From assembly GCF_009908265.2 (NCBI RefSeq), contig NZ_JAAATX020000009.1:1-64000 (forward strand): 64,000 nucleotides of DNA, written 5' to 3'. Shown here piece by piece: positions 46,418-63,386 of this stretch; positions within the stretch are counted from its first letter, which is position 1, and each line of letters begins with the position of its first letter. The notes under the pieces are model-generated. The model saw only the letters and a program-made list of their open reading frames with translations, searched no databases and was not told where the DNA came from. The DNA is from Paragemmobacter amnigenus (GTDB taxonomy: Bacteria > Pseudomonadota > Alphaproteobacteria > Rhodobacterales > Rhodobacteraceae). The position numbers and the translations under genes were made by a program.

Positions 46418-46582
46418 TTACCCGAAGGGATCGTATTCCGAGACGATCACAACCTCGTCTCCGTCGATTTCATCGGCGGGGACGGCGCCGAACGTTCCAT
46501 CCCCTGCCTGGAAGACGACGATCGAGACCATGAGCGTGGCGGCAAGGGAGGCGGCGAAAGCGTGAGCATCTTTGCGGGACAT
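46418..46582 (-). CDS. 54-residue membrane or exported microprotein, copy A
   Basis: MSRKDAHAFAASLAATLMVSIVVFQ is a positively charged start plus one hydrophobic helix. A short acidic tail ending VSEYDPFG follows. The protein encoded at 57536-57700 is identical. At the DNA level the two copies differ at about five codons, all synonymous, and use different stop codons (TAA here, TGA there), which shows selection on the protein. ATG 46582 has an AGGAG site eight bases upstream. No family is recognised. The hydrophobic segment could be a signal peptide or a membrane anchor. Confidence 0.8.
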   Translation of the reverse strand: MSRKDAHAFAASLAATLMVSIVVFQAGDGTFGAVPADEIDGDEVVIVSEYDPFG

Positions 46583-46972
46583 CTGTTTGGCTCCTGTCTT
46601 GGAGGCGGGGGACCATCCCCCGCGCAACAGGACCCCGCAGGCCCGAAGACTGGCTGACATCACCGGGTGCGTTCGGGCATGCCCCGAATCCACCCGGCGG
46701 CACGGGCTCGCCCGTAGTCCGACCCCTCGCGGGTTGATCTCGAAGACGGGATTCGGGGCAAGGAAGGGAATGGCGAGCGAGGGATGGTGCCCCAACGTCA
46801 GGAGCCGGTTGTCCCGCTGATGCTTGGAACGCCGCCAGCCTTCCGGCCAGGCTCTTGGTTGATGACCTCCGTCTTGGGGGATGGATCCTTTGTTGCCCCG
46901 CGATTTTGCGGGACCTGGGTGTGGTCGGTGAGAGGCACGCCCATGGGTAGGCCCCTCACGCATTGTCAGGGC
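46583..46972 (-). ncRNA. Conserved hairpin-rich non-coding region, copy A (candidate structured RNA or leader)
   Basis: About 390 bases with no supported gene align with 57701-58089. Hairpins conserved in both copies are GCGGGGGA/TCCCCCGC (46605-46623), TTCGGG/CCCGAA (46672-46688), ACGGGC/GCCCGT (46702-46715), AGCCT/AGGCT (46837-46853), GGGGAT/ATCCTT (46877-46890) and CCCGCGA/TTGCGGG (46897-46912). Differences between copies fall in loops or exchange G-C for G-U pairs. It probably forms the leader of the microprotein transcript, or an independent RNA. Confidence 0.5.
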
Positions 46973-47082
46973 TCAGGCGGCCAGGTCCGCGCCACCTGCC
47001 CCCTTGCCGTCCTCGGCACCGACTATCTCGAGCCGCGCGTTGCGAAAGCCCTCCCGCGCGATCCAGAGATCAGCCGCCGTCA
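46973..47082 (-). pseudogene. C-terminal remnant of the 157-residue gene (copy of 58090-58563)
   Basis: The minus strand encodes TAADLWIAREGFRNARLEIVGAEDG and ends GGADLAA with TGA. The intact protein at 58090-58563 ends with nearly the same residues. The match stops at about 47082, exactly where the Fic gene stop lies. The Fic-integrase segment therefore appears to have replaced the rest of this gene. Confidence 0.8.
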
Positions 47083-48282
47083 AACGGCATCAAACAGACG
47101 TGGAAACAACACATCGTGGGTTTTGCTCGGAAAGCGCAGCATCAAGGCTCCACGCGGAGTCTCGGACCCGACCACGCCATCGTCCAGGAGGGATTTCATC
47201 GTGGCCCGTGCAGTTCGTGGGGCCACGCCCAGCAGGGCGGCCACGTCACCACGGTCGACCTCACCGCGCAGGAGGATGATGCGTAGCAGGTCCCCTGCCC
47301 TCTCGCCGAGACCTGAAAGCGCAGCGTAACGGGCCAGCCGCTCGCCCAGTCGGTCGAAGTCGAACATGCCCGCCATGAAGGTGACTTGATCCTCGCAAAC
47401 CGCCAGGAACCATTTGGTAAAGCTGACCAGCGCTGCCAAAGAGAGGTTCCCGCGCCCATCACGGTCGCCCTGACGGACACGATCAGCAAGTTGCATCATC
47501 TCGCGGTACTCCTCGCGGCCCGGGAGACCGTCTTGCAGACCGCGCGCCAAGCCACGCGAAACTGACCAAAGCCCGCCCGCCCCGATCCCGGCGTGATGAG
47601 CCATCGCATGCGACATCAAACGGCTGACGCGACCGTTCCCGTCGTAGAACGGGTGGATGAAGTTGAAGCGATGGTGCGCCGTCGCCACGGCGAGTGTGCG
47701 CGTGACCTGACCATGAAGCCAATCCAACCGAAACCGGGTGTGGAAATGCGCCATGAACGAGGGAACCGCATCAAACGGGGGCGGGACATGGGCGCCAACT
47801 TCCACATCGCCCTGCCGCCACTCCCCGGGCACGATCCGGACCACCTGGCCGCCATGGCGCAGGGTCAGCATCTCTTCGGTGGCACCTTCATAGAAGGCTT
47901 CGTGCAGCCATTTGATGAACGACGGGTCACTCGGATCTGGGAGAGTGCCCTCGACCGCCCGGCGGTCGATCTCTTCCTGCAGGCGGACATGCGCCGCATG
48001 TTCTTGCTGCAGCGCCCGACGTCCCGGATCAGCGTCAAAGTCACCAGCGAGCGCCCGTTCGATGTCGCGCGGACGGGTGTTGTTGCCCTCGATACGGTTG
48101 GAATAGTAGCTGTTCATCATCCGCACCATCGCGGCCAAGTCGGCTAAGGTACGGACAGGCATATTGCGACCCAAACCGCGCGACGATTGGATCAGCCGGT
48201 TTGCTGTCTCGACCAGGTCAAGCGGGATGCCATCTTCGAGCCGAGCAGGCTCAATCCGCGATGGGGACACGATGTAGGTCAA
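47080..48282 (-). CDS. Fic-family AMP-transferase with self-inhibition motif
   Basis: The 400-residue protein has the canonical Fic motif HPFYDGNGRVSR at 210-221, with catalytic His210. The N-terminal inhibitory helix motif SNRIEGN at 61-67 contains the glutamate that normally blocks ATP binding (class II Fic). A winged helix follows at the C-terminus (GDVAALLGVAPRTARATMKSLLDDGVV). This is the common architecture of self-regulated Fic proteins that AMPylate target proteins such as gyrase or topoisomerase IV. The C-terminal wHTH may bind DNA. It lies downstream of a broken integrase and probably arrived with it. Confidence 0.92.
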   Translation of the reverse strand: MTYIVSPSRIEPARLEDGIPLDLVETANRLIQSSRGLGRNMPVRTLADLAAMVRMMNSYYSNRIEGNNTRPRDIERALAGDFDADPGRRALQQEHAAHVRLQEEIDRRAVEGTLPDPSDPSFIKWLHEAFYEGATEEMLTLRHGGQVVRIVPGEWRQGDVEVGAHVPPPFDAVPSFMAHFHTRFRLDWLHGQVTRTLAVATAHHRFNFIHPFYDGNGRVSRLMSHAMAHHAGIGAGGLWSVSRGLARGLQDGLPGREEYREMMQLADRVRQGDRDGRGNLSLAALVSFTKWFLAVCEDQVTFMAGMFDFDRLGERLARYAALSGLGERAGDLLRIILLRGEVDRGDVAALLGVAPRTARATMKSLLDDGVVGSETPRGALMLRFPSKTHDVLFPRLFDAV

Positions 48283-48294
48283 GCGGACTCCGGA

Positions 48295-48383
48295 ATGCCA
48301 CTAGGAGTGACACGTAACATATTCGCTAGCTTCGGAAAAAGATAGGGTAAAGCGAGCCTACGCCACTATCACATGCCACTAGG
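48295..48383. repeat. Direct repeat ATGCCACTAGG upstream of the Fic gene
   Basis: ATGCCACTAGG occurs at 48295-48305 and 48373-48383, 78 bases apart, each followed by AGTG or CAGTG. A related CGCCACTAT lies between them (48361-48369). They lie in the 165-base gap between the integrase and Fic genes. They could be regulator half sites for the Fic promoter or core-type sites of the integrase. Confidence 0.45.
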
Positions 48384-48447
48384 CAGTGCCACTCTCGGAT
48401 TTGGAGTGTGGGTCGGGACACGTCCGGACCCACACCGCCTCATCTGA

Positions 48448-50711
48448 TCAGGCCGCTTCCCAGACCTGGTTCAGGATCCGTGCCGCGATCTCGGATTTGT
48501 CCTGAGGCAAGAACCGACCGTAGTGCTGCGCGACCATATCCGGTGTATCCTGAATGGCGTAGCTCGCTTGTTCGTAGGACTCGGTGCGCTTCAGGATATG
48601 GGTGGCCAGAACGTCCCGCACATTGTGCGGCCCGTGCGGCAACAGGCCTTCAATCGCGCCGCGCTTGGTCCAAGGGTTATAGATCTCGTAGTGCTGGATC
48701 GCGGTGCGCCATCCCTCATAGAATGTGTTCTGGCAGTAGGCCGCATTGGTGCTGGTCATCTTCGCCGTCTTGACGAAGAACGTACCCGGGTCAGCCGCCT
48801 CGCCGATCAGCCGCGCGCGATGCCGCTCGATCCAAGCTTCGATCAGTTCGTAAAGTCGCCCGAGGTCCGGCAGGATCAGGCGAAATGGTTTTGAGCCGAA
48901 GAACGATGAGTTGGCGTTCTTGAAGGCGACCGACGGGATCAAGATTTCCCAACCCTGGTCGCGGCTGCTCCAACGCAATTCGCCCCGCTTAAGGTCCTCC
49001 AGCTTGCGCTCCGAGGTCGGCAAAGTCCCTGACCGACACAGCATCAGTTCGCGCAAGTTCTTCTGCCGCAGCCCCGTGTGAAGACCGATGCGCAGCATCA
49101 GGAAAGCGCGGACAGCTTCTGCTGCCGCACGGGCGTTGTTCCGTTCATCTGGCATCCGCTGCAGGATTTCTTCGGTGATCTTGCGGTACTCGCCGACCGG
49201 ACTTGGCGCTTCGAGCACCGGCAGGATGGGCTCGAAAGGGTCTCGATGAATGCGGGCAACGCGGTCGATCTCCTTGATCCGACGACGGGCGTGTTTGTAC
49301 ATGCGGTCGCAGGCGGCGGGCCAATCCGACTGCACCGCGTTGATATCAGCCTCGGTAACCAAGCCCTCAATCGGCCGAAGGCTGCTCCCCATGCGGGGCG
49401 ATTGACGCAGCCAACCGGTCTCTTCTCGGCAGATCGCTGCAGCGATCGATAGCAGGTCGATCTCCCATTTGGTGTAAAAGCCGCGACGACGCTCGCGCCA
49501 ATGAAGGTACCAATCCCAAACCTGGGGGAAGATCATCATGGCAAAGGTCAGAAGTTTTGGATCGACACCGAGACCCTGTACTTCGCTCTCGGGTGGGGCC
49601 ACGAACGCCCCGAACCACAGCCCGAAATGCTCCACCTTCTGGGGAGCTGTTTCCGTGCCCCACACCCCATTCCGCTGCATGCCGAAGGCAGCGAATGTCG
49701 ACGTCTTGAAGCGAAGGAATTCGGCCATCTCGTCGCTCAGGCGCTTCGGCGCGATGACGATGCCAGACTCTTCCGGCGTCCGTGCGGGTGAAGACTTGCG
49801 GACCGGCCCCGAGGCACAGCTGAAGCGAACCGCATAGCACTGGCGAATGGCCGCTGCCTGATACCTGCGATAGTCCGTTGACCCGCTTATGATCACGGTG
49901 CGGACCCAGTTCAGGATTTCTGCCTTCTCCTGGCTTGGCCGTCGGTTGAAATCTTCGGGCAGGTGCCACGCTAGACGCCGGCGCTCAGATGGGGAAATGT
50001 CGTCCAGATCAAAATCGCCTGGTGCTCGATCCGGAGTACCGGACAGGCTCAGGAAGTAGCCTGCGCGTAGCCGATAGCGACGTTCGATCCGCCCAAGATT
50101 TCCAGGCTGATCGCGGCGCGCGGGACCTTCTTGCCGCGCCCCCAGCTGATCAGCGTGCTACGATTGATACCGTCCTCGGGTCTAACCACCGCGTTGTAGA
50201 GGTGGTAGATGGTTTCGCCATGACGGCGGGCATGCAGTTGAAGGGCTTCGCCAAAGGTCGCGGGGTCCTTCCATGTCGTGTCCAGTGGCTCGGGAAACTC
50301 GACGATCGCCCGCGGCCGGACACCGGGCTTCTTGCGAACCTTCTCGGTGCTGGTCGTGGGAACGTCAGCACGGTTCGGGGAAGGCGCGGTGACCTTGGAA
50401 CGCATTGAGTGGCTCGCCGTGCGAGCCTGTCGCAAGGCCACATTCGAAACTTCCCGTGCCACAGCATCGAAGATCGGCTGCAAGTGCGCCCGATGGGCGC
50501 GGAGCCGCTCGACATTGATGTCGAGCATGGCCGACAGAGACGGCAAGTCGAGGCCACTGCCCCGATAGGGCGGGTATTCGGCTCGCTCGAGCAGGTCGAC
50601 CAAGCAGCCGTAGAGCAAGCGCACCTCACCTTCGGTGAAGATCATCGTGAACCGGCTCTTGCAAAACTCGGCGATCTTACGCGGCGTGAGTGCAGAAGAC
50701 GTTGATTTCAT
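48448..50711 (-). pseudogene. Site-specific integrase (tyrosine recombinase-like), frameshifted
   Basis: Two frames belong to one protein of about 750 residues. The N-terminal part (from ATG 50711) includes GETIYHLYNAVVRPEDGINRSTLISWG and reads through ISLEILG, then shifts out of frame and stops at 50049. The correct continuation RIERRYRLRAGYF, then ISPSERRRLAWHLPEDFNRRP and on to QVWEAA, is in the next frame to 48448. One missing C near 50100 (GGCGG for the expected GGCCGG) explains it. Catalytic residues are visible in GLHTGLRQKNL, HNVRDVLATH and AQHYGRFL. A programmed shift is less likely because no slippery heptamer is seen. Confidence 0.8.
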
Positions 50712-50797
50712 TTTCCATCCTTCGATTTCTGGGGCGGCCCAGCTATCGAAATGACCGATTGGACGGGAGGGGCATTCGACGGTCGCGAAGCCCAGAA

Positions 50798-50819
50798 CCC
50801 GGCGGGTTGCTCCGCCGGG
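50798..50819 (-). terminator. GC-rich hairpin downstream of ssb copy B
   Basis: CCCGGCGG and CCGCCGGG form an eight-base stem with a six-base loop, 22 bases after the ssb stop. It is the counterpart of the hairpin at 31183-31204. Confidence 0.5.
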
Positions 50820-50841
50820 CCCGAGGGGGAGACCCCGTTCC

Positions 50842-51246
50842 TCAGAACGGGATCTCGTCGTCGCGGTCGACCAGCTCGGGGTTTTCGTTCTCGGCCGACT
50901 TCGGGCGGCTCAGGAAGTCAACCTTCTCGGCGATGATCTCGCAGCCGTAGCGATCGGTGCCGGTTGCGTCGGTCCACTTCGTGTAGTGGATGCGGCCATG
51001 GACGAGGACCTTCATACCCTTTTCGCAGTGCTCCGCGACGGTCTTGCCGAGGCCGTTGAAGCAGGTGATGCGGTGCCATTCGGTGTCCATGACCCGGTAG
51101 CCGTTCTCGTCGCGGATCACGCGACCTTCCGAGAGGCGCGGCCGCGAGGTGGCCAGGGTGAAGTTGGTGATCTTCGTGCCGCTTTGGGTCGAGCGCACTT
51201 CGGGCTTTTGACCGATGTTGCCGGCGAGGTTAACGATGTTCTGCAT
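50842..51246 (-). CDS. ssb: Single-stranded DNA-binding protein, copy B
   Basis: The 134-residue OB-fold SSB differs from copy A at only a few positions (for example VNLAGNIGQKPEVRSTQSG against VILAGNIGQTPEVRTTQGG). It keeps the C-terminal tip DDEIPF that recruits partner proteins. ATG 51246 is preceded by GGAG. It is in the same orientation as copy A and shares its conserved upstream leader. Two near-identical SSBs on one replicon suggest either a co-integrate of two related plasmids or a duplicated transfer/maintenance region. Confidence 0.93.
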   Translation of the reverse strand: MQNIVNLAGNIGQKPEVRSTQSGTKITNFTLATSRPRLSEGRVIRDENGYRVMDTEWHRITCFNGLGKTVAEHCEKGMKVLVHGRIHYTKWTDATGTDRYGCEIIAEKVDFLSRPKSAENENPELVDRDDEIPF

Positions 51247-51470
51247 GGTAAGCTCCTGTGTTTCCTGTCCCTGGGACCGTCCCTTCGACAAGACCCGGAA
51301 AAAGCCTGTCGGCTGAGGCGTGCACGGGAGGCGGAACGGCGACCGGAAACCTCCAGAGGGCCGGAGTGGAGCGGGCAGCCCCAGAGGGGCAACACGGGCC
51401 GGACTGACGCGGGGTTGCGCGCCAGAGGCCGAACAGGCTTAGGGGATTGTCAGTCGAAGGGATGGCACCG
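51247..51470 (-). promoter_or_regulatory. Conserved structured leader of ssb copy B
   Basis: It aligns with 31630-31850. The hairpins are GCCCC-AGA-GGGGC at 51378-51390 and CTCC/GGAG at 51351-51354 with 51363-51366. The latter carries a compensated base-pair change relative to copy A. The block GGGGATTGTCAGTCGAAGG at the far end is identical in both copies and could hold the promoter. Confidence 0.5.
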
Positions 51471-51668
51471 GGGATAGGGGCGACCTGGGGCTCTCGCAGA
51501 ACTCGGCCTTCCTCACCAAGGCAACCGGGTTGAAACAGTTGCGAAACCGCCGACCCGGCAGCTCAAGCCAACCTCATCTCCCTGCCCTATCGCGGCGTCC
51601 TCCGTAGGAGTTGCGATGTTGCAGCCTGACGGCTATCCCGGACGCATCATTCAGGACACGAGGGCCCA

Positions 51669-51986
51669 ATGGCTGATTTCAATCTCGAGGCGATGTCGCT
51701 CAAGGAACTGCGGCAATTGCAGAAGGACCTCGCCAAGGCGATTTCCACCTATGAGGACCGTCATAAGGCCGAAGCCCGCGCCAAGCTGGAAGCCATCGCC
51801 AAGGAGATGGGCTACTCCCTCGCCGACCTGATTTGTATTGAGGTGAAAACCACCCGTGCGCCAGCCGTGGCGAAGTATCGTCACCCTGAGAACGCAGGCA
51901 TCACATGGTCTGGCCGCGGCCGGAAACCGCAGTGGTTCGCAGACGCGCTGGCTTCTGGGAAGACCTCTAGCCAAATGGAGATCTAG
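51669..51986 (+). CDS. H-NS/HvrA-family nucleoid protein, copy B
   Basis: The 105-residue protein has the helical dimerisation region (LEAMSLKELRQLQKDLAKAI) and the DNA-binding motif YRHPENAGITWSGRGRKPQWF. It is about 70-75 percent similar by eye to copy A at 32061-32381. It diverges from ssb copy B in the same arrangement as copy A. Silencing of foreign DNA on the plasmid is the family role. Confidence 0.88.
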   Translation: MADFNLEAMSLKELRQLQKDLAKAISTYEDRHKAEARAKLEAIAKEMGYSLADLICIEVKTTRAPAVAKYRHPENAGITWSGRGRKPQWFADALASGKTSSQMEI

Positions 51987-52076
51987 CCAGGGGACGTAGA
52001 AACTGCGCAGGGCAGTTTTCAGCGGGGCTAGCGAATTTTCGTCCCGCTTATGAGTGCGATCTAGAAACATCGAGCC

Positions 52077-52111
52077 CGGCGGGGGCAGACAGATTTGGTC
52101 TGCCCCCGCCG
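52077..52111. terminator. Bidirectional hairpin terminator between convergent genes
   Basis: CGGCGGGGGCAGAC and GTCTGCCCCCGCCG form a perfect 14-base stem with the loop AGATTTG. It lies between the H-NS-like gene and the convergent anchor gene, ending seven bases before the latter's stop. Confidence 0.8.
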
Positions 52112-52117
52112 AAGTGA

Positions 52118-52966
52118 TCACGGAGCCTTGATCTCTGCGTAATCCCCACCCGTGCGCAGGGTCACGGTGACCGGCGCCTCGGTGCGGTTGCGCCAGAACC
52201 AGCCGTGGTTGCCAGTGAAGGCGGCAGTGAGGTCGCCTGAGGCCTCGGGCACGGCCCGGCCCTGTTCGTAGCTGATGCTCTCGCCGCTGCCGTCGCCGTG
52301 AAGATCAAAGTTCACCACGCTGCCGTTCGCCGTCCAGAAGAACCGGGCGGTCTGGCCTTCCTCCATGGAGAGCTTCACCTCGATCCCCTCGCCAGGGTTC
52401 AGTGTGTAGCTGACCTCATCGCGCCATTCGGGGGTGGCCGGTTCCGGTGCGGCGGCCTCGGCGACGGCGGCCTCGACCGGGTCGGGCGCAGGGGCTGCCG
52501 CCGCTTCGGGCGCTGGTTCTGCAACGACCGTGGCAGCCGCCGCAGGCTCGGTCAGGCTGGGCGGCGTGCCGATCACGGCAGAGATGGCCGCAAGCTGGGC
52601 GTCGATCCGGTCAAGCCGCTCCAGGATTTCGGGCGCGGGGGCGGCCGTGGCAGGCGTGTTTTCAACGGCAGCGACAGGCGCCGCTGCGGCGGCCTGGACA
52701 TCGGCCTCGGCTTCCGCAGCAAGCTGCTGCTTGATCTCGCCCATCTCGGTCAGCCCGGTCAGGCCACCGACGCCGGTCGGGTCGATCCCGTATTCGGCGG
52801 GCAGCCAGAAGAGGACGAGGATCGCCCCTGCCGCCCCGGCGGCCAGCAGGGTGGACCGGATCAACCCGCCGGGTGTCGCCGGAACGGACTGGATGGGTGC
52901 AGCCGCCGCAGGATGGCGGGGTTCGGGCCGCAAGGGGGCTTTCGAGATATCGAAACGGTTGGTCAT
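52118..52966 (-). CDS. Transmembrane anchor protein, HupE-associated, copy B
   Basis: The 282-residue protein has the same plan as copy A: a short N-terminus with FDISKAPLRPEP, one membrane helix (about 35-55), an Ala/Pro/Glu-rich linker and the beta-rich C-terminal domain with YTLNPGEGIEVKLSMEEG and GNHGWFWRNRTEAPVTVTL. The linker has diverged far more than the two ends, consistent with a spacer. It follows the hupE-like gene by 16 bases, so the two products probably work together at the membrane. The function is not established. Confidence 0.82.
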   Translation of the reverse strand: MTNRFDISKAPLRPEPRHPAAAAPIQSVPATPGGLIRSTLLAAGAAGAILVLFWLPAEYGIDPTGVGGLTGLTEMGEIKQQLAAEAEADVQAAAAAPVAAVENTPATAAPAPEILERLDRIDAQLAAISAVIGTPPSLTEPAAAATVVAEPAPEAAAAPAPDPVEAAVAEAAAPEPATPEWRDEVSYTLNPGEGIEVKLSMEEGQTARFFWTANGSVVNFDLHGDGSGESISYEQGRAVPEASGDLTAAFTGNHGWFWRNRTEAPVTVTLRTGGDYAEIKAP

Positions 52967-52982
52967 GGGTCTCGCCCTCCTT

Positions 52983-53708
52983 TCAGGCGACGAAATATCC
53001 GGTGATCTGCAGGCCCATCAGGGCAAAGCCAGCCACCATCATCAGGACATTCGCGGCATAGGCCTGCCGCGCGAAGGCGGGGCGCGCCCGCCAGTGGGTC
53101 ATCGCCGTCAGGATCAGGGCGAGCGCCATCAGCTGGCCAAGCTCCACCCCCACGTTGAAGGCGATCAGGTTACCCAGCAGGCCGTCGGGCGAGATATCGT
53201 AATCCTGAATCTTGGTGGCCAAGCCGAAGCCGTGCAGCAGGCCGAAGATCAGCGTCGCGGCCTTGGTGTTTGGCTGAACCCCGAACCACAGGCGGAAGGC
53301 GCCGAGGTTGTCGAGCGCCTTGTAGACCACCGAAAACGCGATGATTGCATCGATGATGTAGGCGTTGATCGAGATGGACCACCAGACGCCCGCGATCATC
53401 GTGACCGAATGGCCGATGGCGAAGATACTGACGTAGGTGGCGATGTCCTTGGACCGGTAGAGGAAGAAGATCACCCCGGCGAGAAAGAGAAGGTGGTCGT
53501 AGCCCGTCACCATGTGCTTGGCGCCGAGATAGATGAAGGCGATGGGGCGGAAGCCCGTCACCTCCTGCACATAGCCCGCGTCGCCTTCGGTGACGTTGTG
53601 GGCAAGGGCCGCGCCCGCAAGCAGCAGGGCGGCAAGAGTGGTGGCGACCGCGAGAAGTACCTGCCACGGCAGGGATGGGCGTCGGTGCGCCCTTGGGTTG
53701 GATGTCAT
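52983..53708 (-). CDS. HupE/UreJ-like membrane protein, probable Ni/Co transport
   Basis: The 241-residue protein has a signal-like first helix (VLLAVATTLAALLLAGAALAH) and about six further helices. The family metal-site region is GAKHMVTGYDHLLFLAGVIFFL, and GLLHGFGLATKIQDYD and FNVGVELGQLMALAL follow. HupE/UreJ proteins are nickel (or cobalt) permeases. This subgroup with the extra signal-like helix usually sits beside a transmembrane anchor gene, as here. It is the intact form of the decayed copy at 29530-30193. It is divergent from the regulator/MFS pair across the His-rich gene. Confidence 0.85.
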   Translation of the reverse strand: MTSNPRAHRRPSLPWQVLLAVATTLAALLLAGAALAHNVTEGDAGYVQEVTGFRPIAFIYLGAKHMVTGYDHLLFLAGVIFFLYRSKDIATYVSIFAIGHSVTMIAGVWWSISINAYIIDAIIAFSVVYKALDNLGAFRLWFGVQPNTKAATLIFGLLHGFGLATKIQDYDISPDGLLGNLIAFNVGVELGQLMALALILTAMTHWRARPAFARQAYAANVLMMVAGFALMGLQITGYFVA

Positions 53709-53765
53709 CGTTAGATTTTCCTGACTGATGGAACTGTCGGACCGCCCGCTGACGCAGGCGGCGGC

Positions 53766-54119
53766 TCAGGTCATCGTCAGTCGGGGTGGCCGTCGCGGCC
53801 CGTCACGGGTAGTCCCATCAGCCGCAAAGGAGGCGGGGCGCAGCGTCCGCGCAGGGGGTGGCGGGACTTCGGCTCCTGGCGCCGCGAGCAAGGCCGCGCC
53901 AACATGATCATGATCGCTCGAGTCATGATGATCCGACCCGGCAATGTCATGCACATGGCCATGCTCGGCATGATAGGCACGATGATCAGCCTCTGCGGCC
54001 ATCGCGCCGGGCCCGTGCTTCAACGCTTCCACGGCCGGAGCAACCGCCAGCGACAGGGCCATGAGCAGACAGACGCAAAGCGCCCTGATCGCTGCCCAAG
54101 TTACCGAGATTGCTCGCAT
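53766..54119 (-). CDS. Exported histidine-rich protein, candidate metal binder
   Basis: The 117-residue protein has a signal peptide (ALCVCLLMALSLAVAPAVEA). A histidine/aspartate-rich stretch at about 46-72 (HRAYHAEHGHVHDIAG followed by DHHDSSDHDH) could bind several Ni(II), Co(II), Cu(II) or Zn(II) ions. ATG 54119 has an AGGACGAGG ribosome site. It is divergent from the metal-sensing regulator and shares with it the palindromic operator at 54160-54176, so it is probably metal-induced. No named family is recognised. It is absent from the deleted copy A module. Confidence 0.75.
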   Translation of the reverse strand: MRAISVTWAAIRALCVCLLMALSLAVAPAVEALKHGPGAMAAEADHRAYHAEHGHVHDIAGSDHHDSSDHDHVGAALLAAPGAEVPPPPARTLRPASFAADGTTRDGPRRPPRLTMT

Positions 54120-54159
54120 CCTCGTCCTTTGGGGTTGGCCCCCTTCACTCTCTTGCCTC

Positions 54160-54176
54160 ATCCCCCCAGGGGGGAT
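54160..54176. promoter_or_regulatory. G/C-tract palindromic operator of the CsoR-like regulator
   Basis: ATCCCCCCAGGGGGGAT is a perfect palindrome with a central A. It lies between the divergent His-rich gene and regulator gene. CsoR/RcnR-family proteins bind G/C-tract palindromes of this kind. Confidence 0.75.
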
Positions 54177-54188
54177 AATCTCCTCTAT

Positions 54189-54446
54189 ATGGCAGAAGAT
54201 CACACCCACGCAAGCCACCCCGCCATCGCCACCCGACTGAAGCGCGCCGAGGGGCATCTGCGCCGCGTCATCGGCATGATCGAGGAGGGGCGGCCTTGCG
54301 TCGATCTGGCCACGCAGCTGCACGCCGTCGAGCGCGCCGTGGCCGAGGCAAAGCGGGCGCTGATCCACGACCATATAGACCATTGCCTGACGGGCGCAGG
54401 GACTCATGATCTGGCCGAGATCAAGTCCCTGACAAAGCTGCTCTGA
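54189..54446 (+). CDS. CsoR/InrS-type metal-sensing repressor
   Basis: This 85-residue DUF156 helical protein has Cys37, His62 and Cys66, the C-H-C pattern of CsoR (Cu) and InrS (Ni) sensors, unlike the RcnR pattern of DmeR at 25753. Extra histidines lie at 5, 7 and 10. It is followed, with a one-base TGATG overlap, by an MFS exporter with a His-rich tail, an arrangement resembling nreA-nreB nickel resistance. Nickel is therefore the favoured ligand, but copper cannot be excluded from sequence. ATG 54189 is fixed by the family start. Confidence 0.85.
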   Translation: MAEDHTHASHPAIATRLKRAEGHLRRVIGMIEEGRPCVDLATQLHAVERAVAEAKRALIHDHIDHCLTGAGTHDLAEIKSLTKLL

Positions 54447-55753
54447 TGCTTAGCGCCCTGCGCAACCCCACGTTCCGACATCTCTTCGCCGCACAGATCG
54501 TGGCGCTGGTCGGCACGGGGCTTGCCACCGTCGCGCTTGGCCTTCTCGCCTGGCAGTTGGCGGGGGAAAACGCAGGGGCCGTACTGGGCACGGCCCTGGC
54601 GATAAAGATGGTGGCCTATGTGACGCTTGCGCCGGTGTCAGCGGCCATCGCCGAACGCCTGCCGCGCCGAGCCTTTCTTGTAGCACTGGACCTGATCCGG
54701 GCGGGCGTGATCGCCTTCCTGCCCTTCGTGGATCAGGTCTGGCAGGTCTACGTCCTGATTTTTGCCCTTCAGGCCGCCTCGGCCGGGTTCACCCCGGCCT
54801 TCCAGGCAGTCATTCCCGACGTGCTGAAAGACGAGGACGACTACACCAACGCCTTGTCCCTCCTCCGGCTAGCCGAAGATCTCGAACAGCTCGCCTCGCC
54901 CATGCTGGCTGCGGCGCTTCTGACGGTCGTCAGCTTCCCAGTGCTGTTTCTGGGCACGGTCGTGGGTTTTCTTGCTTCGGCTGCGCTTGTTGTGACGGCG
55001 CGCCTGCCAGCGCGGGCGAAGGCCGAACCCGGCCACTTCTGGGCCGACGTAACCAAGGGCATCCGCATCTACACCCGCACCCCGCGCCTGCGCGGGCTGA
55101 TGGTGATGGAGGCCGCTGTCGCCGCAGCCGGCGCAATGGTCTACGTGAACACGGTCGTTCTGGTGCAGGCCCGATTGGGTCTGGGCGAGGAAGCCGTGGC
55201 GCTCGCCTTCGCAGGCTTTGGCGCCGGGTCGATGCTGGCGGCTTTCCTGCTGCCGCGCATCCTGGACCGTCTGGAAGACCGCCCCGTGATGATCGGCGGG
55301 GCGGCTCTGATGGTCGCAGGCGTGGCGTTGGTGCCGCTGGTGGGTAGCCTTGCCGCGCTGATCGCACTTTGGGCCGTGATCGGCTTCGGCTTCTCGCTGA
55401 CGCAAACCCCCATCGGGCGGATCATCAATCGCTCAGCGCGCGAGGCCGACCGGGGTTCTGTCTTTGCCGCGCAATTCGCACTTTCGCATGCGTGCTGGCT
55501 GGTCACCTATCCACTTGCCGGATGGATCGGCGCGGGAGCTGGACTTTCGGTGGCGGCCATCAGTCTGGCCGTCATCGGCGCCGCAGGCCTTGCCGCCGTG
55601 TGGCACCTCTGGCCCGCGAACGACCAGACAATCCTTCCGCATGACCACCCGGAACTTCCACCAGGCCACCCGCATCTGGCCGAGCATGGCGAGCTTCACG
55701 CCCACGCCGTGGTGATCGACGACCTGCATCGCCGCTGGCCGAAGGCTGCATAA
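54446..55753 (+). CDS. MFS exporter with His-rich C-terminus, NreB-like
   Basis: The 435-residue protein has 12 membrane helices and the MFS motifs (AAIAERLPRRAFLVALD in the first half). It has a cytoplasmic C-terminal tail rich in histidine (HDHPELPPGHPHLAEHGELHAHA). NreB-type nickel exporters share this plan. It starts at the TGATG overlap with the CsoR-like regulator. It is the intact version of the 5'-truncated gene at 28352-29529. Substrate assignment rests on the His-rich tail and the HupE and regulator neighbours, so it is probable rather than proven. Confidence 0.85.
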   Translation: MLSALRNPTFRHLFAAQIVALVGTGLATVALGLLAWQLAGENAGAVLGTALAIKMVAYVTLAPVSAAIAERLPRRAFLVALDLIRAGVIAFLPFVDQVWQVYVLIFALQAASAGFTPAFQAVIPDVLKDEDDYTNALSLLRLAEDLEQLASPMLAAALLTVVSFPVLFLGTVVGFLASAALVVTARLPARAKAEPGHFWADVTKGIRIYTRTPRLRGLMVMEAAVAAAGAMVYVNTVVLVQARLGLGEEAVALAFAGFGAGSMLAAFLLPRILDRLEDRPVMIGGAALMVAGVALVPLVGSLAALIALWAVIGFGFSLTQTPIGRIINRSAREADRGSVFAAQFALSHACWLVTYPLAGWIGAGAGLSVAAISLAVIGAAGLAAVWHLWPANDQTILPHDHPELPPGHPHLAEHGELHAHAVVIDDLHRRWPKAA

Positions 55754-55823
55754 CGTCCAACAAGCCCCAGATCGCAAGGCCGGGAACCAAATTCCGCTTA
55801 ATTGGCGCGTTACTGTTTGAGGG

Positions 55824-56678
55824 TCAAGCTTGTCGGTCCTTTGGCGCTATCGGTAAGTCAAGAGCATGACCGCTGACTGGTCCGCGCAGCGGCTGCGTCA
55901 GCATCCGGTCAAGCCACAGGTCACGGCGCGTGCGGAACTGCTCGATCCCTATGTCCATCCCCTCGTGCCCCTTTGCCGGTTGGGCGATGTAGGTACCCAA
56001 GAGCCGGTCCCACCACGGCAGGTTGAAGCCGTAGTTCGAGTTGGTCTCGCGCGGGTCGACTGAATGATGGACGCGGTGCATGTCCGGGGTGACGACGAAG
56101 AGGCGCAGCACCCTGTCCACCGGGCGCGGCAGATCGATGTTGGCGTGGTTGAACAGTGCGGTCGCGTTGAGGATCACCTCGAACAGTAGCACTGCGACAG
56201 CTGGCGGGCCCAGGGCCGCAACCGCCGCCAGCTTGATACCCATCGAAATGAGGATTTCCACCGGGTGGAAGCGCAGACCTGTCGTTGCGTCGAAGTCGAG
56301 ATCGGCGTGATGCATCCGGTGCAGCCGCCAGAGCCCAGGCACTGCATGGAACATCACATGCTGAAGATAGATCGTCAGATCGAGCAGCAGCATCGAGACG
56401 ATGATCGCGACCCAGAACGGCACATCGAGATTGTTGAACAGGCCCCAGCCGCGATCCTCGGCCATGACGGCCAACCCGACCGCAAGGATCGGGAACGACA
56501 GCCGTAGGATGATTGTGTCGACCACCACGAGCGCGAGATTGTTCGTCCAGCGGATCACCCGAGGAATCTCCCGCCGACGCCGGGGGGCTGCCACTTCCCA
56601 AAGCGCCATCGCTGCCAGAACACCCAGAAAGATGGCAAGACGGATGGTCGCCTCGGTGGCAAGGATGGTCTCGGACAT
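55824..56678 (-). CDS. Sterol desaturase/fatty acid hydroxylase family protein
   Basis: The 284-residue membrane protein carries the di-iron histidine clusters H-x3-H (HVMFH), H-x2-HH (HRMHH), a histidine in ALFNHANIDLP and the last cluster HRVHH, with four membrane helices around them. These enzymes hydroxylate or desaturate lipids using oxygen. The true substrate cannot be read from sequence. It is transcribed divergently from an ArsR-rhodanese regulator with an inverted-repeat operator between. Such pairs suggest control by sulfur or redox state. Confidence 0.88.
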   Translation of the reverse strand: MSETILATEATIRLAIFLGVLAAMALWEVAAPRRRREIPRVIRWTNNLALVVVDTIILRLSFPILAVGLAVMAEDRGWGLFNNLDVPFWVAIIVSMLLLDLTIYLQHVMFHAVPGLWRLHRMHHADLDFDATTGLRFHPVEILISMGIKLAAVAALGPPAVAVLLFEVILNATALFNHANIDLPRPVDRVLRLFVVTPDMHRVHHSVDPRETNSNYGFNLPWWDRLLGTYIAQPAKGHEGMDIGIEQFRTRRDLWLDRMLTQPLRGPVSGHALDLPIAPKDRQA

Positions 56679-56723
56679 GGGGCGCGGGCCTTGGGGCTTG
56701 TGGGGCGCGATGGAGTCGCTATT

Positions 56724-56743
56724 ATTCAAGTTATCGCTTGAAT
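56724..56743. promoter_or_regulatory. Inverted-repeat operator ATTCAAG-N6-CTTGAAT
   Basis: Perfect seven-base arms separated by TTATCG lie between the divergent desaturase and ArsR-rhodanese genes. The site is 24 bases upstream of the regulator start. ArsR-family repressors such as BigR and SqrR bind AT-rich ATTC/GAAT repeats. Confidence 0.7.
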
Positions 56744-56766
56744 GATGTAGCGTCAGGAGACATGAT

Positions 56767-57432
56767 TTGTCAATCGGCCCTAAGCTCGCCCTGCTGGAGG
56801 AATACGCCCTCGTCGCGCGCGCCATGTCGGCACCGGCGCGTCTGATGCTGTTAGAACAACTGGCGCAAGGGGAGCGTGGGGTGGAGGCGCTGGCCGACAA
56901 AACGGACCTCACCATCGCCAACTGCTCGCAACACCTACAACAGTTGCGCCGAGCCGCTCTCGTCACCAGTCGCCGCGACGGCAAGGCGGTGATCTACCGG
57001 CTGACCGACGCGAAGACGCTCGCGCTCATGGACCTTCTGCGCGTCGTCGCGGAGCGGAACCTCGCGCAAGTCGAGCGCCTCTTGCGAGGGCTTTCAAGCG
57101 GCGAGGATGCCCCTGAGCCAGTAAGCAGGGAGGACCTAGCAGCCCGGATCGCCGAGGGCTCTGTGACCGTGCTCGATGTACGCCCCGCAGATGAATACGC
57201 TGTGGGTCACATTCCGGGGGCGCTCAACATGACGCTGACGGAGATCGAGCGGATTGTCCCGACGCTCGATCCGGCCACCGAAATCGTGGCCTATTGCAGG
57301 GGCCCCTATTGCATCTATGCCCACCAGGCTGTCGCCGCCCTACGCAAACACGGCCTCAATGCGCGCCGCCTTGACGGCGGTTTGCCGGAATGGCGCGAGG
57401 ATGGCCTGCCAGTGATGGCAGGCGCGCAATAG
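56767..57432 (+). CDS. ArsR regulator fused to a rhodanese domain
   Basis: The 221-residue protein has an N-terminal ArsR winged helix (1-105; LTIANCSQHLQQLRRAALVTSRRDGKAVIYRL) with Cys53 in the recognition region. The C-terminal rhodanese domain (118-220; VTVLDVRPADEYAVGHIPGALN) carries the active-site cysteine at 177 in YCRGPYCIYAHQA. The fusion is known but not common knowledge in function; persulfide sensing is a reasonable inference. The start is TTG 56767: AGGAGA lies about seven bases upstream and no in-frame ATG fits. It is divergent from the desaturase gene. Confidence 0.88.
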   Translation: MSIGPKLALLEEYALVARAMSAPARLMLLEQLAQGERGVEALADKTDLTIANCSQHLQQLRRAALVTSRRDGKAVIYRLTDAKTLALMDLLRVVAERNLAQVERLLRGLSSGEDAPEPVSREDLAARIAEGSVTVLDVRPADEYAVGHIPGALNMTLTEIERIVPTLDPATEIVAYCRGPYCIYAHQAVAALRKHGLNARRLDGGLPEWREDGLPVMAGAQ

Positions 57433-57535
57433 TCCGATGACCGTGCATTTCATCGGCGCAAGGCCACTCGGCCGACGATAGGCCCGGCGGCGCGTCTGCG
57501 CCGTACCCGGGCCCTCTGGAAGTGAGGCCGAAGCC

Positions 57536-57700
57536 TCACCCGAAGGGATCGTATTCCGAGACGATCACGACCTCGTCGCCGTCGATTTCATCGGCGGGGA
57601 CGGCGCCGAAGGTTCCATCCCCTGCCTGGAAGACGACGATTGAGACCATGAGCGTGGCGGCGAGGGAGGCGGCGAAAGCGTGAGCATCTTTGCGGGACAT
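57536..57700 (-). CDS. 54-residue membrane or exported microprotein, copy B
   Basis: The protein sequence is identical to that encoded at 46418-46582, while the DNA carries only synonymous differences and a TGA stop in place of TAA. The AGGAG ribosome site is conserved. The upstream 390 bases are also conserved and hairpin-rich. In this copy the complete 157-residue gene lies upstream at 58090-58563, so the natural order appears to be that gene, the structured region, then the microprotein. Confidence 0.82.
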   Translation of the reverse strand: MSRKDAHAFAASLAATLMVSIVVFQAGDGTFGAVPADEIDGDEVVIVSEYDPFG

Positions 57701-58089
57701 CTGTTTGGCTCCTGTCTTGGAGGCGGGGGACCATCCCCCGCGCGACAGGACCCCGCAGGCCCGAAGACTGGCTGACATCACCGGGTGCGTTCGGCTCGTC
57801 CGAATCCACCCGGCGGCACGGGCTTGCCCGTAGTCCGACCCCTCGCGGGTTGATCTCGAAGACGGGATTCGGGGCAAGGAAGGGAATGGCGAGCGGGGGA
57901 TGGTGCCCCAACGTCAGGAGCCGGTTGTCCCGCTGATGCATGTAACGCTGCCAGCCTCCCGGGCAGGCTCTTGGCTGAAGACCTGCTTCTTGGGGGATGA
58001 ATCCCTTGATGCCCCGCGATTTCGCGGGACGAGGGGTGTGGTCGGTAAGAGGCCTGCCGGAGGGCAGTCCCCTCACGCCTTGACAGGGC
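57701..58089 (-). ncRNA. Conserved hairpin-rich non-coding region, copy B (candidate structured RNA or leader)
   Basis: It aligns with 46583-46972. Stems here are TTCGG/CCGAA (57790-57804), AGCCT/AGGCT (57953-57969), GGGGAT/ATCCCT (57993-58006) and CCCGCGA/TCGCGGG (58013-58028). The CTGCC/GGCAG hairpin near 58055-58070 is not matched base by base in copy A. Relative to copy A, a G and a C are lost symmetrically in the first stem, G-U becomes G-C in others, and loops differ freely. Confidence 0.5.
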
Positions 58090-58563
58090 TCAGGCGGCCA
58101 GGTCCGCGCCCCCTGCCCTATCGCCGTCGTCGGCGCCGACGATCTCAAACCGTGCGTTGCGATAGCCCTCCCGCGCGATCCAAAGCTCGGCTGCGGTGAC
58201 GGACTCCGCCAGATGCAGCAGTTCCGTATTGCCCCCGAAGTCCAGCAGCACACAGACCTGCCCGGGCTTCGGTTCCTCGGCCACCTCGAAGATCAGACGG
58301 CTATCCGCCGAATGACTGCGCATGATGGTGACCAGGATGACCCCGTCCGAGGAGAAATTCCCCTCATGGAGCGTGAAGGAGGCCGGAGCGGTCCAGGTCG
58401 GATAGACCCTGGGCGGTTCCTTCTTCACAAGGCGGCCGACACCGTTCGAGCGCTCCCAGGCCGCGAGCTTCTTGGTGAAACGTGCTGGCGGCTTGGGATT
58501 ACCGTCGGTATAGCGAATCAGCGCCCCCAAAGGGGCTGTGTCGATGATGGTCGTTGCAGACAT
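58090..58563 (-). CDS. Conserved hypothetical plasmid protein, 157 residues
   Basis: The protein begins MSATTIIDTAPLGALIRYTDGNPKPPARFTKKLAAWERSNGVGRLVKKE. It is beta-rich, with GQVCVLLDFGGNTELLHLAESVTAAELWIAREGYRNARFEIVG towards the end. I recognise no catalytic motif. The high proportion of basic residues in the first 50 might indicate nucleic acid contact. A C-terminal remnant of a second copy survives at 46973-47082. It lies between the large ParB-like gene and the structured region, all on the minus strand. Confidence 0.75.
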   Translation of the reverse strand: MSATTIIDTAPLGALIRYTDGNPKPPARFTKKLAAWERSNGVGRLVKKEPPRVYPTWTAPASFTLHEGNFSSDGVILVTIMRSHSADSRLIFEVAEEPKPGQVCVLLDFGGNTELLHLAESVTAAELWIAREGYRNARFEIVGADDGDRAGGADLAA

Positions 58564-58660: not shown

Positions 58661-60832
58661 TCACTCCGCTGCCATCATTGACGCATAGCTGTCCGGCAGA
58701 TCAGCCGTCAGGAAGGCCGGGAGATCGACCTCTTCGGGCTGACCAGCGTCCTCCCCCTGCCCTTCTCCGACCGCCTCGCCGTCGAACGCCACCAGATCGG
58801 CCCGGCGCAGGACCTCGGGCAACCAGCCGCTGCCTTTGAGGAGCCGCTCGGCTTCCGTGGCCATCTCACCCTTCTTCAGATGGTCGAGCAGCTGCGCGGT
58901 GCCCTCCCCCCTTGCCTCGCGCACAGCCTCGAGGATCCGGGCCTTGGGCACACGGTTGAGGTAACCATCGACGGTCGGCTCCCAGCCTGCCTTGACCATG
59001 TCGAGATCGACGGCACGGGCCACCAGATCGGCATGAGCCATGCGGCGGGTCAGACCGCTGGCCGAGATACCCGCTCCATAGGGGTTCACCTTCTCATGGA
59101 GCGCGTTGATCCCAAAGCTGAGGCAATGCGCCAGAAGAGCCAGACGGCTGCCCTGGTCGAGGGCCGCAAGATAGTCCCAGAGCGCCACATCATCGCCGAG
59201 GGGCAGATCGGCCTCCCAGGCGGCGTGACGCTCATCGACGAGCTTCGCCACGACGCTGTCCTTCAGATCGGGCGCCTGCGCCGACATGTAGACGTGACGA
59301 ACGGAGGCTTCGAGACAGCTGCCCGAGGCAGAGGAGGTGCGGAACGTATCCGTCACCAGTTTCAGGAGCAGGAGCGTCAGCGCGACGTCCGGCGAGCGTC
59401 CGATGGCTTCGCGCAGTGCAAGGGTCCTGTGGGCGGTCAGTTCCATGACCAGCCGCTCGGGCAGCGGTTTCAGCGCGCCATCGTCCTCATCATCGGTCGG
59501 ATCGGCGCCGATCGGTTGACCACCCGAAGTAATGACGGTGCCGCCAGCAGAGGTCGCCGACGGTTTCCAGCTGGAACCCCCGACATCACCCCCCTGCCCC
59601 ATGCCGTCCGCGTCGTCGCCCTCCTGGACCGCGGTCTCCTCGCGCGGCTCGTCCTCGGGCCGGACATAGCCGCGATAGACAGCCAGGCTGCCATCCCGAT
59701 CCAGCGTGACGAAGACGCCCGCGCGCGCAACTTCGGCCGGGTCGTAGATCAAGGCCCGCTGTTCGAGCGCTTCCATCGCCATCTCGAGCTGACCGAGGCG
59801 CGCATCGATCTCCTCGGGGTACTCGTCCTGGCCGGAGTATTCCTCCTCCAGCGCGCGGTATTCGGAGAGCAACGCCGCATGGGACGCGCTTTCCTCGTCG
59901 GTCATCCGCGCGGGATCACCGAGGAGACGCCGCAGACCGTGGCTGTAGCCATAGGGCAGGTCGGTCGCGACCTCGATCCACTTCCAGCCTTCGGAAGTGA
60001 GCGCTTCGGCTTCAGCCTGAAGCTTCTCGGCCACCAGCCGATCGAGAAGGGCAGGGTCCTCGAGCCAACCACCATCATCGCCCTGGAAGAGATCGCGCAG
60101 CACAACACCGCCCGCGGCCTCATAGGCATCGATACCGACGAAGACGGCGCGACGATCCGAGGCCCGAACCGAGCTCTCGGTCAGCATGCGGCGGATGGCG
60201 TAGGGCTCTTTGTTCCAGGAGTTCTTCACCGCGTCCCAGACCTGCATCTGACGCCCGTGGTCGGGGTTCACCGTGAACGCCATCAGCTGTTCCAACGTCA
60301 TGCCATCCTCGGCATAGACCTCGAGCAGGGCAGGGGTCACGGAGGCAAGTTTCAGGCGCTGCTTGACGATCTGCGGCGTCACGAAGAACGCTGCCGCGAT
60401 CGCTTCCTCGCCCTGACCCTTTTCGCGCAGCGCCTGAAACGCACGGAACTGGTCGAGCGGATGCAGGGCGACGCGCTGCATGTTCTCCGCGAGCGAGTCG
60501 TCCTCGGCCAGAATCTCGGACGCGGCATCTCGCACGATGCAGGGGATCGGCGCGGTCTTCGCCAGCCGCTTCTGCTTCACCAGCAACGACAGCGCCTGGA
60601 AGCGACGACCACCGGCCGGGATCTCGAACATGCCGGTCTCCACCCCATCGGCATCGAGCATGGGCCGGACGTTCAAGCCCTGCAGCAGGCCGCGCCGCGC
60701 GATGTCCTCGGCAAGTTCCTCGACCGAGACGCCAGCGTTGATGCGCCGCACGTTGGACTGGCTCAGCGCGAGCTTGTCGAAGGGGATGTCCCGTGCGGGG
60801 GACAGGGTGACTTTCTGGGCTGCTTTCGCCAT
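58661..60832 (-). CDS. Large ParB/Spo0J-like plasmid protein
   Basis: The 723-residue protein has an N-terminal ParB nuclease-fold domain (residues about 15-120: IPFDKLALSQSNVRRINAGVSVEELAEDIARRGLLQGLNV, then box II LAENMQRVALHPLDQ). A helix-turn-helix follows at about 135-165 (EEAIAAAFFVTPQIVKQRLKLASV). The remaining 500 residues are acidic and helical and are not found in partition ParBs. It has no adjacent ParA, while RepA and RepB of this plasmid are nearby. It is therefore probably not the partition protein; transcription or replication accessory roles are open. It is typical of Rhodobacterales plasmid backbones. ATG 60832 begins the similarity. Confidence 0.85.
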   Translation of the reverse strand: MAKAAQKVTLSPARDIPFDKLALSQSNVRRINAGVSVEELAEDIARRGLLQGLNVRPMLDADGVETGMFEIPAGGRRFQALSLLVKQKRLAKTAPIPCIVRDAASEILAEDDSLAENMQRVALHPLDQFRAFQALREKGQGEEAIAAAFFVTPQIVKQRLKLASVTPALLEVYAEDGMTLEQLMAFTVNPDHGRQMQVWDAVKNSWNKEPYAIRRMLTESSVRASDRRAVFVGIDAYEAAGGVVLRDLFQGDDGGWLEDPALLDRLVAEKLQAEAEALTSEGWKWIEVATDLPYGYSHGLRRLLGDPARMTDEESASHAALLSEYRALEEEYSGQDEYPEEIDARLGQLEMAMEALEQRALIYDPAEVARAGVFVTLDRDGSLAVYRGYVRPEDEPREETAVQEGDDADGMGQGGDVGGSSWKPSATSAGGTVITSGGQPIGADPTDDEDDGALKPLPERLVMELTAHRTLALREAIGRSPDVALTLLLLKLVTDTFRTSSASGSCLEASVRHVYMSAQAPDLKDSVVAKLVDERHAAWEADLPLGDDVALWDYLAALDQGSRLALLAHCLSFGINALHEKVNPYGAGISASGLTRRMAHADLVARAVDLDMVKAGWEPTVDGYLNRVPKARILEAVREARGEGTAQLLDHLKKGEMATEAERLLKGSGWLPEVLRRADLVAFDGEAVGEGQGEDAGQPEEVDLPAFLTADLPDSYASMMAAE

Positions 60833-60946
60833 CAGATCTTCTCCGCGACGGGCGCCGGGAGCCACTCTCCCGATCTCACTTCCCGTCACCCCTCAAACCC
60901 CCAACCTTTCCCTCTGTTCGTTCATCGTCTTGCGACCTGTCATGTA

Positions 60947-62393: not shown

Positions 62394-63386
62394 TCATGTC
62401 TCGCGTCTCCAGCGATCATGAAGCTCGTCGAGGACGTCCTGCGCACGGGCGTCGAGCCACTGCGCAAAGGCATCGTCCACATCCGTAAGGTCCAGCCTGA
62501 CCGCCCGAGCCGACCGCTTTATGGCGCCCGCAGGTGCGCCATCGATCAAAAGAGGCGTCGCTTTGGGTCTCGGCTTTCTGCCAAGAGAAGGACCAGTGGT
62601 CTTCTTCACATGGCGGACAACGGCTTCAAATGCCGCGACCGAAGGATCAAGCTGGGGCTCCTCTTCGGCCTGTTCGACTGCAGCCGCCTTGCCTCGGGCA
62701 TCACTTGCAACACGGCAAAGCTCGTCCATGCCCATGCCGGTATTGGAGAGTTCCTTCGCCAACGATTCCCATCTGGGGCGCCCGATTCCATGAGCCGGTC
62801 CAATCGCACGGGCCAAGTCGGTCCCGATCGACTTGGCAACCGAGATCGACATCGACACAGCAGAACGGGTCACATTCAGCACTTCGGCAATCTGAGCCTG
62901 CGAACCAAAGCCGCTGGCGAGCAGCTCCTGGGCGAAGAGGGCGCGTTCGATATAGCTCAGATCGCGCCTTCCAGTGTTTTCGGAAACCTGGGCACGCAGC
63001 GCGGCCGTGTCGTCCAGGTTCGCGATAAGCGCTCGAACCTTCTTGACCTTGTCGGAGGCACGAATGGCCTCAAGACGGCGGCGTCCATAGACGAGTAGAT
63101 AGCGATTGGTCTCGGTCGGGTGGCGCCTTACGAGAATGGGGACGGTCTGGCCGTTCTGCTCGATCGACGCACGCAGATCATCCACATCCTTGGGGTCGAG
63201 GCGATCCGAATACCTCTCGTCCTCGATCTCGACCGGGTCGAGTTCCCAGACATGATGGGCATCTACGGCATCACGCGCGGAGCGCAGGGCCCGATTGCTT
63301 GACATCATGCTGCCCGGGGCAGGGGGCGTCCCCGCTGCTGCCAGACTGTCGAGCATGGACATGCGCTTTTTCTTGCTATCGGTCAT
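62394..63386 (-). CDS. repB: Plasmid partition protein RepB (ParB family)
   Basis: The 330-residue protein has the ParB N-terminal domain (LDPVEIEDERYSDRLDPKDVDDLRASIEQNGQTVPILVRRHP, YLLVYGRRRLEAIR, SENTGRRDLSYIERALFAQELL). A helix-turn-helix follows (QAQIAEVLNVTRSAVSMSISVAKSI), then a C-terminal dimerisation region. RepB binds parS and interacts with RepA to segregate the plasmid. Its ATG overlaps the repA stop by one base (TGATG), which fits the RepA:RepB coupling of repABC operons. The two parS sites at 60947-60997 are its probable targets. Confidence 0.93.
   Translation of the reverse strand: MTDSKKKRMSMLDSLAAAGTPPAPGSMMSSNRALRSARDAVDAHHVWELDPVEIEDERYSDRLDPKDVDDLRASIEQNGQTVPILVRRHPTETNRYLLVYGRRRLEAIRASDKVKKVRALIANLDDTAALRAQVSENTGRRDLSYIERALFAQELLASGFGSQAQIAEVLNVTRSAVSMSISVAKSIGTDLARAIGPAHGIGRPRWESLAKELSNTGMGMDELCRVASDARGKAAAVEQAEEEPQLDPSVAAFEAVVRHVKKTTGPSLGRKPRPKATPLLIDGAPAGAIKRSARAVRLDLTDVDDAFAQWLDARAQDVLDELHDRWRRET

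Follow-up and report, generated by a model that had tools for sequence, protein, structure and literature searches.

A covarying hairpin element before a small-protein gene on alphaproteobacterial plasmids: a candidate start site on the transferred strand

The first 64,000 nucleotides (nt) of contig NZ_JAAATX020000009.1 of the alphaproteobacterium Paragemmobacter amnigenus (hereafter the window) contain two copies of a hairpin-rich non-coding region, each lying upstream of a gene for a protein of 54 amino acids (aa). An initial annotation, made from the sequence alone, had taken this region for a structured RNA of the minus strand, and the locus thus raises the question of which nucleic acid strand folds here and what the fold does for the gene that follows it. 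The element proves to be a member of a family that occurs across several orders of Alphaproteobacteria and that is tied to plasmid transfer. The reading that we put forward, tentatively and with slightly more doubt than confidence, is that of a cis-acting element in the leading region of conjugative plasmids, whose transferred strand would fold as a start site for RNA synthesis.

The element and its pairing

The two copies lie where the initial annotation had placed them and are parts of a single duplicated block, in which blastn pairs 46361-47065 with 57480-58182 (648/706 identities, 92%) and which comprises the 54-aa open reading frame (ORF), the non-coding region and the 3' end of a 157-aa gene. 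Read in the direction of the gene, the element consists of an arm named S, the 5' arm of a long-range helix P1, the hairpins A, B, and C, the 3' arm of P1 and a hairpin D, followed by the ATG; the folded core, of about 200 nt, immediately precedes the gene (Table 1). Hairpin D is conserved, with its outer stem carried as CCATC/GATGG in rhizobia. The pairing of S with D (S:D) and the local hairpin D are mutually exclusive and, since S:D encloses P1, the whole element can close into one long imperfect hairpin.

Table 1. Positions of the element, of the small-protein genes and of neighbouring genes in the window
Feature	Coordinates	Strand	Basis or remark
Ribosome-binding site AGGAG	57709..57713	-	sequence
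Hairpin D, copy 2	57711..57749	-	outer stem CCTGTC/GACAGG overlaps ribosome site; inner stem GCGGGGGA/TCCCCCGC
P1, 3' arm of long-range helix	57760..57773	-	covariation
Hairpin C	57781..57813	-	covariation
Hairpin B	57814..57837	-	covariation
Hairpin A (ACCC/GGGT)	57838..57850	-	covariation
P1, 5' arm	57860..57873	-	covariation
S arm	57893..57905	-	complementary to 5' arm and loop of hairpin D; covariation, folds
Hairpin D, copy 1	46593..46631	-	
P1 with hairpins C, B, and A, copy 1	46642..46757	-	P1 arms 46642-46655 and 46744-46757
S arm, copy 1	46777..46789	-	
54-aa protein, copy 2	57536..57700	-	translation and relatives
54-aa protein, copy 1	46418..46582	-	identical to copy 2
157-aa gene	58090..58563	-	adjoins element; copy 1 retains 3' end alone, about 46963-47065
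Large protein with ParB N-terminal domain	58661..60889	-	Pfam PF02195
repC	60999..62210	-	Pfam PF03428
repB	62394..63398	-	Pfam PF07506

Covariation across homologues, the lack of which the initial annotation had named as one outcome that would refute a structured RNA, is present. The comparison rests on the 112 copies that remained after removal of rows with N, rows with less than 260 nt upstream, duplicates, and the loci L015 (a misread ORF), L069 (no upstream sequence) and L157 (which lacks P1-A-B-C); redundancy cuts reduced these to 25 or 17 copies. Among 85 distinct rows, 85.5% of the positions concerned are paired, and double-sided cells number 168, against 40.9 in shuffles (0/500), in an alignment that was fitted to the structure. 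The covariation score is 0.184, compared to 0.084 in shuffles, and falls to 0.05-0.07 when the partner is shifted by one column. Because the alignment was fitted in this way, pairing was also tested by partner permutations that require no alignment: the P1 arms pair best with their own partners, and S with the 5' arm and loop of D, with 0/5000 permutations as good in either case. A short helix Q, suspected between S and P1, was rejected, as 665/2000 permutations did as well and no covariation supports it.

Only some of the stems proposed at the outset belong to this fold. ACGGGC/GCCCGT corresponds to hairpin B and TTCGGG/CCCGAA to the inner hairpin C, both of them conserved hairpins. The stems CCCGCGA/TCGCGGG and GGGAT/ATCCC were not confirmed; both are upstream of S, in the outer half of the region. 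On a tree of 74 close relatives, plain mismatches replaced Watson-Crick pairs there 18 and 16 times, and it is because of such repeated losses that the outer half is not considered a conserved fold.

The protein that follows is the same in both copies, as had been noted from the sequence; at the DNA level the two ORFs are distinguished by their stop codons and by five third-position changes, all of them synonymous, consistent with a protein under purifying selection. It belongs to no Pfam or NCBIfam family, and its best match in PHROGs has an E-value of merely 0.011. AlphaFold2 predicts one helix and three strands (predicted local distance difference test score, pLDDT, of 90), a fold for which the Protein Data Bank (PDB) gave no match at E<=0.001. 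A lectin relationship, suggested by profile matches with E-values of 0.05-0.08, was set aside as chance, and a phage origin was likewise rejected, no relative having been found among viral contigs or in a phage collection.

Occurrence and link to plasmid transfer

At the DNA level, matches occur in 33/295 genomes of the bacterial family at E<=0.001 (three of them merely pieces shorter than 60 nt) and in 86 plasmid records at E<=1e-5. Matches to the protein occur in 264 plasmid records (E<=0.01; in 86 of these, the match extends over at least 80% of the protein), in at least 553 places in genome contigs, and in 7/385 genomes across the class, P. amnigenus included. The 264 records were typed as conjugative (161), non-mobilizable (77) or mobilizable (26). 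Two contigs with an almost unchanged protein are labelled Verrucomicrobiaceae, a metagenome-assembled genome (L053), and Enemella evansiae (L074); they are probably mis-binned or contaminant rather than evidence of transfer to other phyla.

Element and protein go together. The covariance-model search that the initial annotation had suggested, run with a model built from 22 copies, located the element once, directly before the gene, at each of 100/100 loci, which are a chosen part of the protein-bearing loci and include one match truncated by a contig end (L114). In 82 genomes of one order, the model gave five matches, in the same five genomes that carry the protein, and in the P. amnigenus genome its four strong matches are the four copies of the protein gene, followed by two weak ones (E 0.13 and 0.80). 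Three of these four copies are on contig C9, which includes the window, and one is on contig C14. The two that lie outside the window, both with the protein, are at C9:153635-153982, a more divergent copy (80% alike) situated 33 kb from a relaxase gene on its leading side, and at C14:12558-13106.

During conjugation, the leading region of a plasmid is the first to reach the recipient, and the orientation of the gene relative to transfer was determined in 17 of 20 plasmid records taken (L155, L157 and L159 being excluded). In 17/17, the transferred strand is the template for the 54-aa gene and, in the 16/16 records for which it was computed, the gene is on the leading side, at a distance of 3-74 kb or 1-38% of the plasmid. 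Three kinds of evidence contribute to these counts. A Ti-type nic motif was present in 6/12 records searched, between traC and traA in five of the six, the sixth being unannotated. The 3' side of nic becomes the leading 5' end of the transferred strand and, given this polarity, all six records have the transferred strand as template, with the gene 3-33 kb away on the leading side. Read from another nic-like match, on the plus strand of NC_011984.1 (89170), the orientation would be reversed; this match was dismissed because it falls within an SDR gene. Where a PF03432 relaxase is encoded, the relaxase gene and the 54-aa gene share a strand in 10/10 records, the latter being 20-74 kb away on the leading side, if oriT lies just upstream of the relaxase gene and this gene enters last, an assumption supported by the P-type nic motifs found upstream of two of the ten relaxases, both on the predicted strand. 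One further record is consistent in orientation according to its traA annotation.

All four copies in P. amnigenus are similarly on the relaxase strand of their respective contigs, and, if C9 is complete, those near the leading side are the C9:153635 and C14 copies only. The surroundings of the gene are also of leading type in many records, with ArdC, helicase, ParB-N and YAcAr genes as neighbours. Of the 18 records with annotation (all but L161 and L164), 11 have a toprim-annotated gene within the stretches taken and another one has a DUF3991 gene; three of the toprim annotations were confirmed by Pfam.

Which strand folds, and to what end

Where a helix is formed by RNA, Watson-Crick pairs give way to G-U much more often than to A-C, and an A-C on the gene strand is a G-T on the template strand. 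The acceptor and T stems of 27 distinct tRNAs of the same genome, used as a control, gave 26 G-T and 1 A-C (the anticodon stem, in the wrong register with 52 mismatches, 14 G-T and 9 A-C, was left out). On the gene strand of 25 divergent copies, P1 shows 10 G-T and 13 A-C (Fisher p 5.5e-5 versus tRNA) and S:D 8 and 11, and over 59 distinct helices P1 shows 17 and 37; in contrast to tRNA, neither P1 nor S:D has the excess of G-U over A-C expected of an mRNA leader. The two examples that the initial annotation had read as G-U are G-T on the plus strand but A-C on the minus strand, where it had placed the RNA. On the tree of 74 relatives, pairs of P1, A, B, and C changed to A-C 33 times and to G-T six times, compared to 2 and 8 for hairpin D and 23 and 23 for the unconserved outer half; these counts serve as support only, because many of the events fall in few columns.

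Folding energies were corrected with shuffles. P1-C folds better on the template strand in 22/25 copies with DNA energies and in 20/25 with RNA energies, or in 15 and 14, respectively, of the 17 less redundant copies, a set affected by a misplaced start of D in 4/25 copies (L004, L038, L116, and L162). Hairpin D folds better on the coding strand (19/25 with DNA and 20/25 with RNA energies), as would be expected of a structure at the ribosome site of an mRNA, and the long hairpin made of S:D and P1 is the template-strand optimum in both window copies. On balance, P1 lacks the character of an mRNA helix, with a leaning towards the template strand, and D has that of an mRNA hairpin.

In the reading that we prefer, the transferred strand, which is the template of the gene and the plus strand of the window, would fold as single-stranded DNA (ssDNA) upon entry into the recipient, forming one long imperfect hairpin in which D is paired through its 5' arm with S, P1 lies above this pairing, and hairpins A, B, and C make up a crown. 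This double-stranded mimic could then be bound by RNA polymerase or a primase and act as an RNA start site on the incoming strand, i.e., as an ssDNA promoter and/or a primer site, possibly by means of another sigma factor. As RNA synthesis would start on the incoming strand, the 54-aa protein would be made early, before a second strand exists, and copying of the second strand would erase the fold. The mRNA would begin near D, and hairpin D would cover its ribosome site and tune translation.

A serious rival, even if we hold it to be somewhat unlikely, is a plain mRNA leader. A minus-strand transcript would start upstream of S, S:D pairing (ribosome site free) would compete with hairpin D (site covered), and P1-A-B-C would act as a sensor, in a riboswitch-like or autoregulatory manner. 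The linkage of element and protein wherever searched, the covariation of hairpin D, its overlap with the ribosome site and its better folding on the coding strand, and the covarying complementarity of S to D, which creates two exclusive states, are all what such a leader would predict. The coding strand can moreover form S:D in 17/25 copies and P1 in 19/25 (DNA energies, with the same four misplaced D starts). However, a leader would leave unexplained why the gene is locked to the orientation of transfer and to a leading position. Because P1 lacks a G-U excess, P1-C prefers to fold on the template strand and the orientation is that of the transferred strand, a simple minus-strand RNA, as initially proposed, is not supported, whereas the proposal of a structured cis element that precedes the 54-aa protein and belongs to no known RNA family is supported. 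The family is probably not just an RNA leader.

Several observations weigh against the ssDNA reading. Partner permutations prove pairing, not which strand pairs, and the ability of the coding strand to form S:D and P1 extends, in copy 2, to RNA energies. Over 25 copies, the G-T and A-C counts of P1 do not differ from each other, and the A-C excess on the tree stems from few columns, with unpaired columns leaning likewise (64 versus 39). The energy-based strand test is given little weight because its positive control failed: on the 27 tRNAs, RNA energies pointed to the wrong strand (18/27, p 0.015) and DNA energies to neither (12/27). In the same test with DNA energies, the ORF is shifted as well, though less (17/25), and A-B-C taken alone is not (14/25). 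An RNAalifold run that favoured the coding strand (-19.0 versus -7.3) was set aside, its rough alignment having contained one misread row and rows with N. Sigma-70 -35/-10 boxes are absent from 57690-58100 (0 sites), and the best matches in the 25 copies are worse than those in shuffles (5.28 versus 4.83 mismatches). In P. amnigenus and in the 82 genomes of one order, no copy of the element was seen ahead of another gene, unlike Frpo, a hairpin of F-like plasmids discussed below. The two window copies are not near the leading side of the relaxase of their contig, if C9 (220 kb) is complete. Finally, hairpin D and the protein persist without P1-A-B-C in one plasmid, Aminobacter aminovorans pAA03 (L157, 3730-3949), where P1-A-B-C was not found upstream of the gene and where the two halves of the element appear to have been separated naturally.

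In our view quite unlikely is a single-strand initiation site of the ssi/sso type that would prime second-strand synthesis on the incoming strand, with the protein as a mere neighbour or a cofactor. The same evidence on strand and position would fit such a site, as would the primase-like toprim annotations nearby and the lack of promoter boxes; however, gene control is suggested by the conservation of the hairpin at the ribosome site and by the one-to-one association of element and protein and, to our knowledge, a gene-linked hairpin of this kind is not a feature of an sso. A small antisense RNA of the plus strand, folded as P1-A-B-C and regulating the 54-aa mRNA, would equally account for the folding preference of the template strand, but it is very improbable given that neither strand of 57690-58100 has a promoter- or terminator-like site, that P1 displays no clear G-T excess on the plus strand (13 versus 10), and that the orientation of transfer would be unexplained. 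No less improbable is a double-stranded protein-binding region, i.e., a replication, partition or recombination site with the inverted repeats as operators, which would suit the proximity of ParB-like and repABC genes, both in the window and in two Rhodobacterales plasmids, as well as the almost balanced wobble signs over 25 copies (10 versus 13), but for which P1 arms that change yet keep pairing over about 100 nt would be needless, sequence-specific operators having no use for this.

Neighbouring genes, known systems and significance

In copy 2, the gene order on the minus strand is repA (partial)-repB-repC-ParB_N-157 aa-element-54 aa, according to Pfam; in copy 1, the 157-aa gene is reduced to its 3' remnant and a Fic gene adjoins. 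For the complete 157-aa gene, which separates the ParB-N gene from the element, Pfam, NCBIfam and PHROGs gave no match. On other plasmids, two further features were seen close to the element or gene: in pAtS4c (L036), an Rfam match to the ar15 small RNA (11401-11510, minus strand, 116.8 bits) a few hundred bases upstream of the element, and in an Ancylobacter plasmid (L163), a second small hypothetical ORF (4459-4617) directly 3' of the relative of the 54-aa gene.

The earlier impression that no named family fits is borne out for RNA families: the whole window has no Rfam family at the gathering score, and a relaxed scan of 57500-58200, at E<=10, produced six matches, none of them credible and all far below the gathering score (E 0.95 to 6.7). 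An E. coli chromosome and plasmid collection, where F-like plasmids are expected, had no blastn match at E<=0.01, in a search that did not align a known Frpo itself.

Known systems nonetheless offer parallels. Single-stranded promoters are established in F-like plasmids (PMC9849209, PMC11541004). The Frpo/ssi elements of F and ColIb-P9 are non-coding hairpins of the leading region, upstream of early genes and with the transferred strand as template, of which a plasmid may have more than one copy (PMC9849209, PMC11541004). The element resembles them in place and orientation, and probably in strand. It differs in having a GC-rich crown of several hairpins, a tie to one protein and an mRNA hairpin at the ribosome site, and in lacking both a match in the E. 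coli collection and -35/-10 boxes, sequence similarity and such boxes being two defining traits of Frpo, and for this last reason it is not classed as Frpo. The sso of ICEBs1 (PMC4595007) is comparable as a single-strand site on a conjugative element. Riboswitch-like cis-regulatory leaders share the two mutually exclusive pairings at the ribosome site, but the wobble pattern and transfer orientation found here are unlike those of an RNA-only element, and there is no Rfam match. In the titles and abstract openings examined on Frpo, single-stranded promoters and leading regions, no such alphaproteobacterial element is described, which is not proof of its absence from the literature.

A broader proposal, possible rather than probable, is that these elements represent a class-wide alphaproteobacterial family of ssDNA regulators, devoid of sigma-70 boxes and of an origin independent of Frpo, in which the transferred DNA strand would fold upon entry and start RNA synthesis, while the fold of the mRNA so made would gate the translation of a dedicated establishment protein of 52-61 aa. 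If this is true, early gene expression from incoming ssDNA would be a convergent trait of conjugative transfer, present well beyond the enterobacteria, and a small, uncharacterised protein carried by agrobacterial, rhizobial, and marine plasmids would become a candidate establishment factor.

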